Source: Clostridia bacterium (GTDB taxonomy: Bacteria > Bacillota > Clostridia > Oscillospirales > Acutalibacteraceae). From it: a DNA stretch of 48,672 nucleotides. A program made the translations under genes and the position numbers. The DNA is taken from assembly GCA_017403265.1 (NCBI GenBank), contig JAFQOJ010000024.1, forward strand, positions 1 through 48,672, read 5' to 3'. Under the pieces are notes generated by a model. The model had not been told where the DNA came from. It did no database searches and worked only from the letters and a program-made list of their open reading frames with translations. Positions within the stretch are counted from its first letter, which is position 1. The number at the start of each line of letters is the position of its first letter. Positions 1 to 48,672 of this stretch are shown piece after piece.

Positions 1-2119
1 AGTCGGTTAAAAGGTTTATGAGTAACAACTGAGCAGCCGCTATAATAGGTGCTTTAAAAAGGCATGCACCTAAGAAAAGCGCTATAAGCTCAGCAAAATT
101 ACAACTGCACAAATAATAAAGTGTCTTCTTTATATTACCGAAAAATCCGCGGCTTTCTTTAATAGCGGTAACCACCGAACCAAAATTGTTTTTAGGAATA
201 ATAATATCCGCATTACCCTTTGCAACATCAGTACCGTTTTGTCCTAAAGCGCAACCAACATCAGCAGCGGCTAAGCTTTCGGCATCGCTTAAACTGTCAC
301 CCGTAACGGTAACTATTGCCTTACGTGCTTGCCAAGCCTTAACTATACGAAGCTTGTCTTCGGGTGAAACACGCGCAAAAACACAGTATTTATCAATAAT
401 GGCTACTAACTCTTCATCAGACATTTCTTTGATTTCAGCGCCGGTAATAGCTTCGTCATCGTCTTTTAATAGCCCAATTTTTGAAGCAATTGCTTTAGCG
501 GTATATAGGTTATCACCCGTTACCATAACTGTTTTTATATTTGCTTTGTTGCAAATTTCAATTTCAGCTATAACACTATTTCTGATAGGCTCATTCAATA
601 TAAGAAGCCCCACAAATGTAAGATTTTGCTCTATTTCATCGGCTTGCGGATTTGCGGGTATTTCGTCTAAAGGCTTCATTGCAATACAAACTATGCGGTA
701 TGCATCTTCTGCAAGCGACTTATTTAAATTTAAAATCTGTTCTTTATTACAGTTTAGGCATTTAGGTATAAGCATTTCGGGTGCGCCCTTTACAATGGCA
801 AACGGGCGCTCGTTTATCATAGTTATAACCGACATTGATTTTCGCACCGAATCAAAAGGAATCTCCCCTATTTTAGGCATCAGATTTACAAGGTCGGTAT
901 TTGTAAGTGAGTTATAAGTAAGGCACGCTTTTTTAATAGCTTCTTCGGTAGCGTCGTTTTGAAGCGTTGAACAAACCGCACCAAGTCTTAAAAGAACCGA
1001 AGCATTTTCAGTTAGCGTATCGGTTTCTAAATCAATTAGCGTTTTACCGTCAAAAACCGAAGAAAGCACCATGTTTTTATGAGTGAAAACACCTGTTTTA
1101 TCGGCTATAATAACATTTGTTTTACCTATGGTTTCAAAGGCGTTGCTTTCTTTGATAATAATTTTATCGTTTAAAATTCTGCCCATACCGATTGCAATAA
1201 CTATTGTAGCAATAGCGGGAAGGCTTTTAGGCATTGTAGCAACCGCAAGCGCCAAGGAGTTTAAAATTACACCGAAAAAATTAACCGCAAACGGTTGTGA
1301 AGAAGATAAATTTTTAAAAAGGCTTATGAAAAAAACTAACAAACAAACTACAAGTATTGATATATTAACAAATTTGCCTATAGCATCAAGCTCGGACTCA
1401 ATGGGCAAGCGCTTTGTACCCATTTGCTCGTTAATTAGGATTGTCTTACCGTTTTCGGTAGCAACACCTGTTGCAACAACAACCGCCTTCGCAGTTCCGT
1501 GCACTACAGTTGAGCCCGCAAAGACCATATTAGCACGCTTCTCTAAAGGAATAATATCTTCAAAAACAGCTTTAGCATCCTTTTCAATAGGTACTTCATC
1601 GTCTGTTAAGGCAGATTCGTTACAACGAAACTCATTACTTTCGATAAGCCTTGCGTCAGCACAGATATAGTCACCCTCAGATAAGAATACAATATCGCCT
1701 TTAACCAAGTCATCGGCAGATATAACCTTTTCTATACCGTCACGCAAAACCTTTACTGTGGGGTGTGAAACACTTTTAATATCGTCCATAGTGCTATCGC
1801 AAGAGTAAAGATGAAAAGCGCTTATGACAGCATTTATTAAAAGAATAGCTATAAGTATCAGCGGTGCGTAGGAATTTTCCTGTGAATAGGCTAAATTTAT
1901 AACAAAAGAAATAATACTTATAATAATTAACGCAATTAAGGTTTTACTCTTAAGCTGTGCTACAAAACGCTTTAAAAGGGAAACCTTTGGAGCGGTTTTA
2001 ATTTCATTTTTGCCGTAGGCTTCAAGACGTTCTTCGGCAACACCGTTAGCAAGACCTGAAGCTTCGTTAACCGAAAGTTCAGCTAAAACCTCTTCTATGG
2101 AAGTGCTATGCCAAATCAT
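1..2119 (-). CDS. P-type (P2-like) cation ATPase, C-terminus cut by window edge; signature motifs altered
   Basis: About 706 codons are present, read from the ATG at 2119 off the left edge. The fold follows the Ca2+/P2 ATPase family: two membrane helices near residues 50-90, actuator domain, TM3-TM4, P-domain with DKTG (D340), N-domain with KGAPE (about 444), DKLRIV, then TM5-TM6. Four normally near-invariant motifs differ. TGES reads TDDE (172-175), PEGLP in TM4 reads PKSLP (297-301), DKTGTLT reads DKTGVFT, and GDGxNDAP reads GDSLSDAE (607-614). TM5 (SCNFAE) and TM6 (NLLTD) keep the Asn, Glu and Asp typical of cation sites. The frame is open throughout, so this is not simple decay. It overlaps the upstream endonuclease IV gene by 4 bases (ATGA), implying translational coupling. 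Membership of the P-type fold is certain; ion specificity and activity are unknown. Confidence 0.9.
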   Translation of the reverse strand, partial: MIWHSTSIEEVLAELSVNEASGLANGVAEERLEAYGKNEIKTAPKVSLLKRFVAQLKSKTLIALIIISIISFVINLAYSQENSYAPLILIAILLINAVISAFHLYSCDSTMDDIKSVSHPTVKVLRDGIEKVISADDLVKGDIVFLSEGDYICADARLIESNEFRCNESALTDDEVPIEKDAKAVFEDIIPLEKRANMVFAGSTVVHGTAKAVVVATGVATENGKTILINEQMGTKRLPIESELDAIGKFVNISILVVCLLVFFISLFKNLSSSQPFAVNFFGVILNSLALAVATMPKSLPAIATIVIAIGMGRILNDKIIIKESNAFETIGKTNVIIADKTGVFTHKNMVLSSVFDGKTLIDLETDTLTENASVLLRLGAVCSTLQNDATEEAIKKACLTYNSLTNTDLVNLMPKIGEIPFDSVRKSMSVITMINERPFAIVKGAPEMLIPKCLNCNKEQILNLNKSLAEDAYRIVCIAMKPLDEIPANPQADEIEQNLTFVGLLILNEPIRNSVIAEIEICNKANIKTVMVTGDNLYTAKAIASKIGLLKDDDEAITGAEIKEMSDEELVAIIDKYCVFARVSPEDKLRIVKAWQARKAIVTVTGDSLSDAESLAAADVGCALGQNGTDVAKGNADIIIPKNNFGSVVTAIKESRGFFGNIKKTLYYLCSCNFAELIALFLGACLFKAPIIAAAQLLLINLLTD

Positions 2120-2970
2120 AACAACACCCTTTCGTAATAATCTTTCATTTGTTTAGAGTCTATTGCCTGTGTACCTGCAGATTCGCAGATAAATGTAGGC
2201 GAACAGGCATATTTTACCACTAAATCAAGCATAGGTTCATATTCGGGACCGAAAACAGTATCCTCAAATGTTAAATGCTTTTTTTCACCGCCCGTGGTAT
2301 ATTCAATCTTAGAAAAATGCGAATGGAATGTTTTAAGACGGTCTGTACCCAAAGCATTACGAATATCGGTAAAAATATTATCAAAATCTTCTTTAGTTTT
2401 TAAAATTCCTAAATCGCGAGCATTTAGATGGCCAAAATCTATACAAGGTATCAATCTTTCATCTAATTTGCAAAGCTCTAAAACCTCGTAAAGAGTACCC
2501 AATTGGTTGACCTTGCCCATAGTTTCAGGACAAATATGAATCTCAGAAAGACCTTCTTCATCTAAAGCCTTAATAGCAAGCTTCATAGTATCTTTAGCAA
2601 GCTCCAAAGCGTGCTCGCGGGTAATTTTACCGCAAGAACCTGTATGAACAATAATTCTATTACCGCCCATAGCATTAATCGCACGTGCAGAAGACAGAAT
2701 GTAATTAACAGAATTCAAACGCTTTTCTTCTTCCACTGAAGACATAGAAATATAATAAGGCGCGTGAAGAGATAGGCTTATACCCGCTTCCTTTGCCTTT
2801 TCACCTAAAAGCTTAGCTTTATCTTCCCCTATATTTACACCGCGTCCGCATTGGTACTCAAAGCAGTCCAAACCCATTTTGGTAACATATTCGGGAATAT
2901 CTAGGCTATTTTTATAGCCTAATGCTTTAAAATTATCATCAGTACCGGCAGGACCAAAAATAGCAGACAT
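2116..2970 (-). CDS. nfo: Endonuclease IV family TIM-barrel AP endonuclease (Nfo-like)
   Basis: The 284-residue protein has the size and metal-ligand pattern of endonuclease IV. These enzymes cut DNA 5' of abasic sites in base excision repair using three zinc ions. Visible motifs in order: HAPY (about 69), IVHTGS, ICPETMGK, CIDFGHLNAR, FHSHFSKIEY, a His-Leu-Thr-Phe-Glu-Asp segment and CES near the end. These supply the His/Glu/Asp zinc ligands. The ribosome site GGAGG lies inside the last codons of yqeG, and the stop overlaps the start of the P-type ATPase. It could also be a sugar-phosphate isomerase-type TIM barrel of the same superfamily, but the motif set favours Nfo. Confidence 0.85.
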   Translation of the reverse strand: MSAIFGPAGTDDNFKALGYKNSLDIPEYVTKMGLDCFEYQCGRGVNIGEDKAKLLGEKAKEAGISLSLHAPYYISMSSVEEEKRLNSVNYILSSARAINAMGGNRIIVHTGSCGKITREHALELAKDTMKLAIKALDEEGLSEIHICPETMGKVNQLGTLYEVLELCKLDERLIPCIDFGHLNARDLGILKTKEDFDNIFTDIRNALGTDRLKTFHSHFSKIEYTTGGEKKHLTFEDTVFGPEYEPMLDLVVKYACSPTFICESAGTQAIDSKQMKDYYERVLL

Positions 2971-2971
2971 A

Positions 2972-3469
2972 CTATACCTCCGTATTGGTAATATTGAGCT
3001 TTTTAATTAAAAAAGCTTCAACCTTTCGTTTCATACGAAATCTCAAAGAAGTCTCAGGCTTAATTGGTGTTAGTAAAATAGTTTTAAGTCCCACTAAGTT
3101 ACCGCCTAAAACGTCGGTAAAAAGCTGGTCACCCACAATTGCGGTTTCATATCTTTTACTATTTAACCGCCTTAAAGCACGCAAATACCCAAACGGCAAC
3201 GGCTTTAATCCTAAGCTAATATACTTAAGACCTATTTTTTTAGCAAACGGCTCTAAGCGTTTAGAGGTAGAATTAGATAAAACAGTCAGTTTAATTCTGT
3301 TTTCATTCATTTTTTTAAGCCAAGCTTCAAGGCCGTCAGTCAGAACTTGTCCATGATGGGTGGAAAGTGTATTATCAACATCCAAAATAAGCGATGTAAT
3401 TTTATATTTTTTTAAAAGCTCTAAAGTGATATCGGTTACCCTTTCAAGCTTAATATTTGGTTTAAACAT
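2972..3469 (-). CDS. yqeG: YqeG family HAD-IIIA phosphatase
   Basis: A HAD-superfamily phosphatase of about 165 residues. Motif I is LDVDNTL (nucleophile Asp plus second Asp), motif II LSNST, and the acidic motif GDQLFTDVLGGN. Small class-III HAD proteins of this type are widespread in Firmicutes, and B. subtilis YqeG is the namesake; the physiological substrate is not settled. An upstream in-frame extension to 3505 exists. The ATG at 3469 is preferred because GAGGA stands just before it and because the extension would run through the rpsU terminator hairpin. First gene of the yqeG-nfo-ATPase run. Confidence 0.88.
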   Translation of the reverse strand: MFKPNIKLERVTDITLELLKKYKITSLILDVDNTLSTHHGQVLTDGLEAWLKKMNENRIKLTVLSNSTSKRLEPFAKKIGLKYISLGLKPLPFGYLRALRRLNSKRYETAIVGDQLFTDVLGGNLVGLKTILLTPIKPETSLRFRMKRKVEAFLIKKLNITNTEV

Positions 3470-3486
3470 ATTTTTATCCTCAAATA

Positions 3487-3513
3487 AAAAAGCGGTTGCA
3501 CGCAACCGCTTTT
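3487..3513 (-). terminator. Rho-independent terminator after rpsU
   Basis: Read on the minus strand, a 9-bp perfect stem (AGCGGTTGC with GCAACCGCT, 2-base loop) is followed by a run of Ts. It lies 13 bases past the rpsU stop and in front of the yqeG ribosome site, so yqeG depends on readthrough or its own promoter. Confidence 0.85.
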
Positions 3514-6528: not shown

Positions 6529-6894
6529 TTAGTCACCTATAGTTTCCTCTAATATAGTTTGTAACTCTACTTGCGGGGCATCTGCCCACATTTTATCTAA
6601 AGCGTAAAATTCACGCTCTTTATATCCAAAAACATGAACTATAACCGAGCCATAATCAAGTGCTATCCAACCCGAAGCCTTACCCTCTATATGATGGGGC
6701 ATAACTCCTGCTTCTTTTAGCTTTGCTTCAACCTCATCAGCTAATGCTCTAACTTGGGTAGAAGAACCGCCCGAACAAATAAGAAAATATTCGCATAAAA
6801 CGGTTAAATCTTCAACCTTTACTGCGTTAATATTCTTACCTTTTTTACTGTTAATTGCATTTGCGGCAATTTTTAAAATCTCAAATGAACTCAA
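6529..6894 (-). CDS. rsfS: Ribosomal silencing factor RsfS (Iojap/YbeB)
   Basis: About 121 residues with the DUF143/RsfS core: [24 protein letters not shown] and [15 protein letters not shown]. RsfS binds uL14 on the 50S subunit and blocks subunit joining when nutrients are scarce. A TTG at 6894 is the likely start: GGAGGA lies 8 bases ahead, it falls one base after the yqeK stop, and it gives the normal family N-terminus. The only upstream alternative reads back into yqeK. The yqeK-rsfS-leuS order and the nadD neighbour are common in Clostridia. Confidence 0.92.
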
Positions 6895-6895
6895 A

Positions 6896-7462
6896 TTATT
6901 TATCCTCCAAATAAACCGCCTCATTAAAGGCTTTTAAAGTATCAAAATGTATTGCGCGTGTTTGGTCAACCAAATCCTTTATAGTGTACTGCAAAGCATA
7001 AACAAGCGCCTTATTAAAAGAAATATCAACTAAGCTTCGCATAACATCTACATCAGGATAATCGCGGTCAGATGATGTAAAATCCGCCAAATAAAGCACC
7101 AAGCATAACGGCGACATATTTTCTTTAGCTGTTGTATGATAGCGTATAGCATCAACAATTTCATTATCATTAATGCCCAATATATGCTCTACATAAAGCG
7201 AGCCCGAAATTGCGTGCCAAAGCTTTAAAGCATTTTTTTCAACATCGTCTAAAATTATACCAAACCTTGCGAAAATTTGCAAGTGTTCTTCTTTCGGTGC
7301 GTTTTTTGTAATATCGTGAAGCAATCCCGCAAGATAAGCCTTTTCGGTATTAACACCTATTTTCTCAGCTAAACGCTTTGCTTCATCGGCAACACAAAGG
7401 GAATGAAAATAACGCTTTTCATCCAAACGCTCTTTTAAAATTTTCTTATATTCACTATACAC
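6896..7462 (-). CDS. yqeK: YqeK family HD-domain phosphohydrolase
   Basis: A 188-residue HD-superfamily protein. Metal-binding residues are visible in HSLCVADEA, LLHDITKN (the HD pair) and AIRYHTTA, followed by LADFTSSDRDYPDV. In characterised relatives YqeK is a symmetrical Ap4A hydrolase acting on dinucleoside tetraphosphates. The GTG at 7462 overlaps the last codons of nadD, consistent with translational coupling. It is adjacent to nadD, as in most Firmicutes. The start codon is less certain than the function class. Confidence 0.9.
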   Translation of the reverse strand: MYSEYKKILKERLDEKRYFHSLCVADEAKRLAEKIGVNTEKAYLAGLLHDITKNAPKEEHLQIFARFGIILDDVEKNALKLWHAISGSLYVEHILGINDNEIVDAIRYHTTAKENMSPLCLVLYLADFTSSDRDYPDVDVMRSLVDISFNKALVYALQYTIKDLVDQTRAIHFDTLKAFNEAVYLEDK

Positions 7463-47869: not shown

Positions 47870-48672
47870 ATGGAAAAAATTATTGTATCTTTGACATTTG
47901 CAGGTTCAATACTGGCCCTTTTGTTTGCGCTTTTAATGTCACGCAAAGTTTTAAAGTTTTCAGAAGGCACAGACCTTATGAAAAAAATATCTTTGTCAAT
48001 TAGAAAAGGTGCCAATGCTTATTTAAAACGCCAGTATAAAATTGTTTTAATTTTCTTTATTGTGATGTTTTTAATTTTAGCAGTTATGGCGGCATTTAAC
48101 CTTTTAACCCCCTATGTTCCCTTTGCGTTTATAACGGGTGGTTTTTTCTCAGCACTTTCAGGCTTTATAGGCATGAAAATTGCAACCCTTGCTAACGCAA
48201 GAACCGCTAATGCTTGCCGTGAAGGTCTTAACAGAGGTCTTCGCATTGCCTTTTCAGCAGGTAGCGTTATGGGCTTTACGGTTGTAGGTCTTGGTCTTTT
48301 AGACATTTCGGTTTGGTTTTTCCTTTTAAAATTTGTTTTTAAATTGAGTGCCGAATCCATTACAAGCGCAATGCTTACCTTTGGTATGGGTGCTTCTTCA
48401 ATGGCTTTATTTGCTCGTGTTGGTGGCGGTATCTTTACAAAGGCTGCCGACGTGGGTGCCGACCTTGTAGGTAAGGTTGAAGCAGGTATCCCCGAAGATG
48501 ACCCACGTAATCCTGCTGTTATTGCCGATAATGTTGGTGATAATGTTGGTGACGTTGCAGGTATGGGCGCCGACCTATATGAATCATATGTAGGCTCCGT
48601 TATTTCAGCCTGTGCTTTAGGTGTTGCGGCATTCCACACTATTGAAGCAATGGCACTACCTATGCTTTTAGC
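47870..48672 (+). CDS. hppA: Membrane-bound, ion-pumping inorganic pyrophosphatase, cut by window edge
   Basis: The first 267 residues of an H+/Na+-translocating pyrophosphatase, which couples PPi hydrolysis to ion export. N-terminal membrane helices occupy about 5-25, 55-78 and 80-103. The catalytic loop is complete: GGGIFTKAADVGADLVGKVE and DDPRNPAVIADNVGDNVGD, then GMGADLYESYVGS. The aspartates bind Mg-PPi. The residue that separates K+-dependent from independent types lies beyond the window, so ion type is open. AGGAG precedes the ATG. Confidence 0.96.
   Translation, partial: MEKIIVSLTFAGSILALLFALLMSRKVLKFSEGTDLMKKISLSIRKGANAYLKRQYKIVLIFFIVMFLILAVMAAFNLLTPYVPFAFITGGFFSALSGFIGMKIATLANARTANACREGLNRGLRIAFSAGSVMGFTVVGLGLLDISVWFFLLKFVFKLSAESITSAMLTFGMGASSMALFARVGGGIFTKAADVGADLVGKVEAGIPEDDPRNPAVIADNVGDNVGDVAGMGADLYESYVGSVISACALGVAAFHTIEAMALPMLL

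Follow-up and report, generated by a model that had tools for sequence, protein, structure and literature searches.

Can a P-type ATPase whose signature motifs are altered at several points still pump ions, and what holds its gene in the genome if it cannot? The question is posed by one end of contig JAFQOJ010000024.1 of Clostridia bacterium assembly GCA_017403265.1 (Acutalibacteraceae), the whole of which, at 48,672 nucleotides, is the stretch analysed here ("the window"). A P2A-type (Ca2+-ATPase-like) protein is encoded there on the minus strand, in a frame that begins with an ATG at position 2119 and runs uninterrupted to base 2, where the contig stops; the protein is thereby cut at 706 of ~865 residues, so that the last ~156, with transmembrane helices (TM) 7 to 10, are missing. 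This protein belongs to a clade of single origin in which the parts for ATP binding and phosphorylation are nearly invariant, the ion site is mostly kept, and the residues serving dephosphorylation are dispersed; we tentatively interpret the clade as conformational switches derived from a calcium pump.

The four altered motifs listed in a first-pass annotation of this DNA (TDDE for TGES, PKSLP for PEGLP, DKTGVFT for DKTGTLT, and GDSLSDAE for GDGxNDAP) are present letter for letter, and other motifs are retained (KGAPE, TGD, DKLRIV, N674 and E677 in TM5, and N702, T705, and D706 in TM6). Its wording suggests that the Mg2+ aspartates of GDGxND are lost, but both are present (D608 and D612), and only the G, the N, and the P differ, together with a V-to-L substitution.

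Origin and residue conservation of the divergent clade

Divergent homologues were selected as rows whose motif IV is not GDGVNDAP, GDGINDAP, or GDGVNDSP, so that canonical motif IV counts are partly a product of construction; the tree then placed all 66 divergent rows on one side of a single branch, opposite 34 canonical rows, with a support of 100 in the Shimodaira-Hasegawa-like approximate likelihood ratio test (SH-aLRT). The clade is nested among canonical P2A-like rows, the nearest of which, L139 (= L120, genus g178) and L121, both keep TGES, PEGLP, DKTGTLT, and GDGVNDAP. A smaller tree of 44 divergent and 33 canonical rows recovers the same single divergent clade. Both trees are quick LG+G4 searches with SH-aLRT support only, ten rows were flagged for unusual letter composition, and duplicates, three fragments (L040, L045, and L055), and a far paralogue (L044) were removed before counting. 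The sample consists mostly of metagenome assemblies.

Clade counts refer to the 66 divergent rows (fewer where a row is cut) against 79 canonical rows, in SERCA numbering; the SERCA residue names and roles are, unless a paper is cited, those that we take to hold from general knowledge. The fewest state changes that the tree allows are 10 at Glu183, 6 at Glu309 (3 of them to Lys), 6 at Glu771, 2 at Asp800, 4 at Asn706, 3 at Asp703, 2 at Thr355, and 1 at Asp351, and this stepwise pattern rules out a single coordinated event. The four motifs thus did not change at once, as had been proposed: the replacement of T355 by Val or Ile, the loss of N706, G704 to Ser, and P709 to Asp or Glu are common to much of the clade, and the Glu-to-Lys change in TM4 (3/66) and the Gly-to-Asp change in TGES (1/64) are local.

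What is needed to bind ATP and form the aspartyl phosphate is nearly invariant. At the phosphorylation site, D351 is present in 65/66 members and K352, T353, G354, and T357 in all 66; in the phosphorylation (P) domain, the three TGD residues are kept in 66, 65, and 66 of 66 (T625 and D627 in all), T701, G702, and D707 in all 66, and K684 in 63/66; and the nucleotide residues K515, F487, and R560 are found in 66, 65, and 64 of 66. The ion ligands are mostly kept (N768 62/65, N796 63/65, D800 62/65, E309 59/66, and E771 59/65), and these five are all present in 55 of 65 members. TGES is dispersed, with E183 in 28/64 rows (Asp in 16 more), S184 in 3/64, and the intact motif in three rows (L016, L158, and L159). 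T355 remains in 4/66 (Ile or Val in 61), G704 in 16/66, N706 in 4/66, P709 in 3/66, and D703 in 46/66. In the 79 canonical rows, E183, T355, N706, and P709 are invariant (for motif IV partly by construction), as are D351, K352, T353, G354, T357, K515, T625, D627, T701, G702, and D707. When sites are grouped by function, a grouping made post hoc, the clade retains eight dephosphorylation-side sites in an average of 16% of its rows, whereas the 165 sites with a conservation of at least 97% among canonical rows have a median of 89%, a contrast greater than chance would give; the corresponding shares are 99% for twelve sites of the phosphoenzyme E1P, 98% for five nucleotide sites, and 93% for six ion ligands. 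Other canonical-invariant sites, with no assigned role, have been lost as well, 48 of 177 being retained in under half of the rows of the smaller set.

Three of the eight dephosphorylation-side sites are named in PMC11977196 (papers given by PMC number are cited from excerpts throughout) as contacts between the actuator (A) and P domains of LMCA1, where the contacts in the [Ca]E2P state are I218, L221, and L222 on one side and P601, V625, and P629 on the other. The Ile at the I218 position occurs in 71/71 canonical and 4/44 clade rows (79/79 and 4/65 in the larger set), the Pro at P629 in 71/71 and 3/44 (Asp or Glu in 36/44), the Val at V625 in 70/71 and 12/44, and the Leu at L222 in 65/71 and 13/44; P601 is kept in 37/44 clade rows, and L221 is variable in clade and canonical rows alike. 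In Ca2+-ATPases, the TGES loop catalyses dephosphorylation, and the E161Q replacement of the TGES Glu in KdpB abolishes ATPase activity (PMC7535926, PMC11977196).

Selection, distribution, and members without ion ligands

The ratio of nonsynonymous to synonymous substitution rates (dN/dS; Nei-Gojobori) is 0.041, 0.055, 0.035, 0.051, 0.086, 0.065, 0.060, and 0.090 in the eight divergent pairs with a dS of <1.4, compared with 0.083, 0.033, 0.034, and 0.101 in four canonical pairs with a dS of <1 and 0.026 to 0.139, where finite, in the neighbour genes of the same pairs. Above a dS of about 1.4 (which includes L135/L167), absolute ratios are unreliable, and the distant pairs are saturated, with rough ratios of 0.056 to 0.126 where finite. 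Leaving the window's own aside, 60 of 65 open reading frames (ORFs) of the clade encode 858 to 893 residues; of the remaining five, all shorter, four run off a contig end and one is cut by an in-frame TAG. Ratios as low as those of canonical pumps argue that the gene is not decaying. The first-pass annotation had supposed selection rather than decay and would have given this up had altered homologues been absent and dN/dS neutral; the opposite was observed, with altered homologues present, low dN/dS, the gene in most genomes of the genus, and a gene order that recurs.

A divergent orthologue with 45 to 72% identity is found in 64 of the 70 genomes of the genus examined (60 relatives were searched first, then 70 genomes). 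Three of these genomes (G030, G601, and G605) are counted as holders from pieces only, G605 by its hit table (pieces of 50% and 63% identity, motifs unread); the protein is absent from G024, G025, G029, G031, G611 (57% complete), and G620, some of which are incomplete. A canonical P2A hit occurs in 16 of the 70 (13 of these hits were read, and those of G603, G619, and G615 were taken from the hit table), and both types occur in 13. The other 51 of the 64 holders of the divergent protein have no canonical P2A listed, an upper bound, as many are incomplete. A backup canonical pump in every genome is thereby ruled out. The first pass expected an ordinary P2 ATPase elsewhere in the genome; in the window's own (87% complete), the one other PF00122 protein reads as a CopA-like P1B pump.

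Those records of the family that bear names belong to metagenome-assembled Clostridia, and for several the source was gut or faeces (buffalo, deer, goat, cattle, and horse). In searches of 394 genomes of the wider order and 200 of the family, both drawn from larger groups, some of the best-scoring hits were read, and the only divergent proteins among these were L100 and L118 (genus g228) and L116 and L119 (g210). A further divergent member, L042, was found separately from those searches, and there may be more outside the genus. The assembly that holds it (JAFPBM) has two divergent ATPase pieces on separate contigs, L042 and L045, both with THSD and overlapping in the A domain, which may be two copies or the ends of one gene. 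Genus g228 has a second P2A-like protein, L174 (G585) and L175 (G489), with TGEV, PEALS, and Ala at the position of the TM5 Glu, which is again an unusual ion site; both genomes carry the divergent protein as well (L118 and L100, respectively). Among viral contigs, 26 pattern matches included no relative of the divergent ATPase.

Some members have lost ion ligands or the phosphorylated aspartate. At the positions of E309, N768, E771, N796, T799, and D800, L135 (G079) reads ACINAN and its sister L167 (G616) ASVNLN, with full frames and all acidic ion ligands gone; L163 (G622) reads TNVNID and L118 (G585) TNVNIN, with frames intact, and the change is partial in L146 (EGKKID) and L010 (ENEKVD). 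In L158 (G613), the phospho-Asp motif is NKTG (codon AAC), in a full frame with TGES and all six ligands intact. Judged by their sequences, L135, L167, L163, L118, and L158 cannot pump by textbook rules. In G079, which is 99% complete, there is no full-length P2A-like hit besides L135.

Between L135 and L167, dN is 0.063 in the A domain, 0.074 in the nucleotide-binding (N) domain, 0.070 in the P domain, 0.184 in M3-M4, and 0.276 from M5 to the C-terminus (whole-gene dN/dS 0.058, rough at a dS of 2.3). The hand-calculated ratio of M5-to-end dN to the mean dN of the head is about 4 for L135/L167 and 3 for L010/L146. In these two clearest pairs, as their substitutions indicate, the cytosolic head stayed constrained and the membrane part loosened, which is our main argument, drawn from few pairs, that, at least there, something other than transport is selected. 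If a pseudo-pump is a protein that has lost residues essential to the transport cycle and is under purifying selection, L135 and L167 look like pseudo-pumps; the window protein keeps its phospho-Asp and five of six ligand positions.

Switch, pump, and other explanations

The combination of fixed E1P chemistry and ATP binding, a mostly fixed ion site, dispersed reset machinery, a constrained protein, and side branches without ligands or phospho-Asp matches a switch more closely than it does a pump or a gene on its way out. The reading we favour, with a confidence that stops a little short of even, is that this single-origin P2A clade stands outside the ordinary pump cycle as a cation- and ATP-gated, slowly reset conformational switch, or pseudo-pump. 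The sequences show that the parts for ATP binding and E1P formation persist almost without exception, and that diverse residues have taken the place of those through which the actuator domain docks on the phosphorylated P domain and E2P is hydrolysed. On our reading, cation binding would still trigger autophosphorylation in most members, the return of the phosphoenzyme to its starting state would be slow or follow a different path, and selection would preserve the cytosolic head as a switch, not the net transport of ions. In such a scheme, the lysine in TM4 of the window protein would act as a tethered cation by which the input stays "loaded," and members without ligands would have lost that input. 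A slow or regulatory pseudo-pump was among the options raised in the first pass, and it has become the leading class of explanation. A more specific history, which we hold more tentatively still, is that a P2A calcium pump became a non-pumping, ATP-binding membrane switch in nearly all species: the dephosphorylation half would have been dismantled at the base of the clade, after which single lineages would have lost either the ion input, through their ligands or a lysine that takes the place of the cation at the site, or, by a change of Asp to Asn, the output of phosphate.

Several observations weigh against a switch. Motifs of the forms GD[SN]xxD and DxxG[VI] are found in other enzymes of the haloacid dehalogenase (HAD) type, and P-domain changes alone need not stop turnover. 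The complete set of five ion ligands in most members would be needless in a protein with no use for ions, and many members, having Glu or Asp at 183, may still hydrolyse E2P. Clade-specific conserved residues that might mark a partner site amount to three weak positions. The Asn of L158 comes from one metagenome-assembled genome. The ratio of membrane to head dN is about 2 in L118/L100 and L135/L054, pairs with one ligand-less member each, which lies within the 0.6 to 2.2 of ligand-intact pairs (the 2.2 being that of L030/L029, whose A domain is incomplete; the window/L004 pair, cut and with Lys, gives 0.8). The neighbouring genes (nfo-like, yqeG, glyA, purB, and mgtE) offer no decisive hint of function. 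Lastly, little can be read from the loss of the TGES Ser, a position at which P-type ATPases are known to differ (Chan et al. 2010, as cited in PMC7535926).

The main rival to the switch, possible though we think it the less probable of the two, is a cation pump that still works, more slowly and with altered tuning, and whose cation may have changed; it would dephosphorylate by means of Asp or Glu at 183 or an acid at 184 and a generic HAD-like Mg site (GDSxxD). Of 43 rows, 40 do have an acidic residue at one or other of these two positions, the five ligands are complete in the proportion given above, canonical P2A pumps go unlisted in most genomes with the divergent protein (many of them incomplete), and the human protein TMEM94/ERMA is reported to transport Mg2+ with neither TGES nor GDGVND (PMC13322241). 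On the other hand, acids at 183 and 184 are not significantly linked (Fisher p 0.098), which leaves a compensating shift from E183 to 184 unsupported; 3 of 43 rows have an acid at neither position; members lacking ion ligands or the phospho-Asp are retained; and the A-P contacts are altered too.

The lysine in TM4, which the first pass had proposed as a built-in counter-ion, fails as an explanation of the clade and is plausible for its three carriers, the window protein (K298, codon AAA), L004 (AAG), and L143 (AAA). It was gained at least three times on the tree, and each carrier has Ser or Thr at 295, three residues before it, compared with 1 of 63 others (L016; Fisher p 9e-5, uncorrected for relatedness), eight Glu members of the same subclade having Ala there; counted as three independent pairs, all of which agree, the association gives a sign test p of 0.25, too few for significance. 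Positively charged built-in counter-ions are known in TM5 or the canonical ion site of P1A, P1B-2, P3A, and P4A ATPases (PMC10654040), thus not in TM4, and no report of a built-in positive charge in TM4 was found in the excerpts covered. As the lysine is confined to 3 of 66 members, Glu to Lys takes one transition, and L005, the sister of L004, has E309 with Gln at 771, which resembles a general loosening of the site, we regard a counter-ion or tethered cation that changes ion handling in these three proteins as unlikely.

Decay is far less probable. Its case is made by the variable catalytic motifs, by the six of 70 genomes that lack the gene (some incomplete), and by one in-frame TAG each in L029 (301-2898, G014) and L040 (3-2207, G017); the eight dN/dS values of 0.035 to 0.09, the near-uniform ORF lengths, the 64 genomes that hold the gene, and the recurring gene order rule it out. 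No other interrupted copy was observed in the genus, and in L029 and L040 alike the reading frame is open before and after the TAG; decay, assembly error, and TAG read-through would all fit them.

That the window is a sequencing or assembly artefact has next to no probability, even with a genome in 74 contigs (87% complete), the gene at a contig end, and a TGES Gly-to-Asp change seen in 1/64, as dozens of other assemblies carry the same kinds of motif change, which refutes an artefact for the clade, and the Lys occurs in three species with codons AAA and AAG.

Classification, gene surroundings, and known systems

The window protein is a member of the P-type ATPase superfamily (TIGR01494, 213.7 bits against a cut-off of 62.3), and the Pfam models E1-E2_ATPase, Cation_ATPase_N, Hydrolase, Cation_ATPase, and Hydrolase_3 all score above their cut-offs. 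It falls below those of the NCBIfam Ca2+-ATPase equivalogs TIGR01522, TIGR01116, and TIGR01517 (378/798, 335/703, and 326/507 bits, for a truncated protein), as does the full-length L033 (434, 392, and 338 bits); even the canonical L139 and L138 exceed the cut-off of TIGR01517 alone (516 and 511 bits against 507), which makes the test a weak one for this order. By descent the protein is P2A; in TGES, in the TM4/TM5/TM6 ligand set (Lys at TM4), and in GDGxNDAP it departs from that class. AlphaFold models of the window protein and L033 have a mean predicted local distance difference test score of 70.4 and 71.1, with most of the A domain at <50, too weak for the geometry of the TGES loop.

Features of the window in the divergent ATPase gene and the two genes upstream of it
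Feature	Position	Strand	Remark
Divergent P2A-type ATPase ORF, 706 residues	2..2119	-	Truncated by contig end; orthologues about 865 residues
TDDE replacing TGES, residues 172-175	1595..1606	-	A-domain dephosphorylation loop
T226, equivalent of LMCA1 Ile218	1442..1444	-	A-P domain hydrophobic contact; alignment to LMCA1, contact named in PMC11977196 (excerpt)
T295	1235..1237	-	Hydroxyl residue accompanying the TM4 lysine
PKSLP replacing PEGLP, residues 297-301	1217..1231	-	K298 = LMCA1 E292 = SERCA E309; codon AAA
DKTGVFT phosphorylation motif, residues 340-346	1082..1102	-	Phospho-Asp D340 kept; V at T355 position
KGAPE nucleotide-binding motif	776..790	-	Kept; K444 = SERCA K515
TGD, P domain, residues 534-536	512..520	-	Kept
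GDSLSDAE replacing GDGVNDAP, residues 607-614	278..301	-	Both Asp kept, Asn lost
TM5 CNFAE	89..103	-	N674 and E677 (SERCA N768, E771) kept
TM6 NLLTD	2..16	-	N702, T705, D706 (SERCA N796, T799, D800) kept; contig stops here
AP_endonuc_2 TIM barrel gene (nfo-like)	2116..2970	-	Upstream; stop overlaps ATPase start as ATGA
YqeG-like HAD phosphatase (Pfam PGP_phosphatase)	2972..3505	-	Same putative operon

The immediate upstream neighbour of the ATPase gene is an nfo-like AP_endonuc_2 gene at 31 of 66 loci; glyA takes this place at 17 and purB at 4 (a tally that misses L007 and in which some flanks are short), and yqeG precedes nfo where the flank reaches. In eight loci of one subclade (L016, L020, L022, L023, L024, L160, L161, and L162), a convergent gene for the Mg2+ transporter mgtE lies just downstream. 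A protein of ~242 residues is encoded beside the ATPase in L031, L038 (at 6613-7338, with no Pfam match), L054, L135, L166, and L167; in L031, L038, and L135, the final base of the ATPase stop codon is also the first base of its gene, and the protein is a possible partner.

Among proteins of solved structure, the best match is LMCA1 (lmo0841), the P2A Ca2+-ATPase of Listeria, with an E value of 2.8e-116 for residues 8-706 of the window protein and 4.3e-129 for L033. The phospho-Asp (window D340, LMCA1 D334), KG.P, the TM5 Asn, and the TM6 Asn and Asp align; TGES, DKTGTLT, GDGVNDAP, and the A-P contacts I218, V625, and P629 are altered in the clade, and the TM4 Glu292 of LMCA1, equated with SERCA E309 in PMC11977196, is Lys in the window protein. 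The P6 ATPases (CtpE) are likewise Ca2+-pump-like, with PEGL and an unusual ion site, but the window protein and 62/65 clade rows have the TM6 Asp that P6 lacks according to the excerpt of PMC10654040, which rules out P6 membership. In the apicomplexan PfGC-beta, a P4-ATPase-like domain with degenerate signature motifs has been kept in evolution (PMC6592433), as in the clade, but it is of P4 type and fused to a guanylate cyclase, whereas the bacterial protein stands alone. CATP-1 of Caenorhabditis elegans, also among the known systems closest to the clade, differs in being an animal Na,K-type pump.

The closest analogue is TMEM94/ERMA, which has P-type architecture with neither TGES nor GDGVND, and whose DKQGI in place of DKTGT is altered at the same point as the DKTG[IV] of the clade, a parallel rather than homology. 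Whether it pumps is disputed, ATPase activity having gone undetected in PMC12134183 and Asp-dependent Mg2+ transport having been reported in PMC13322241, and the clade bears on that open dispute, namely, whether a P-type ATPase lacking TGES and GDGxND can pump. If our reading is correct, the clade would represent natural pseudo-P-type ATPases in bacteria on the scale of a family; P-type pseudo-pumps may not have been described as a set in bacteria before, no earlier report having been found in the open-licence full-text literature. It would also offer a natural mutational series that separates phosphorylation, ion binding, and dephosphorylation, with close canonical relatives for comparison. 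TMEM94/ERMA differs in being a eukaryotic endoplasmic reticulum protein with GSSANL at motif IV and an occluded nucleotide pocket; in the bacterial clade, by contrast, D707 is universal and D703 present in the majority, the nucleotide residues persist, as for the most part do the Ca2+ ligands, and the genus itself includes canonical relatives.

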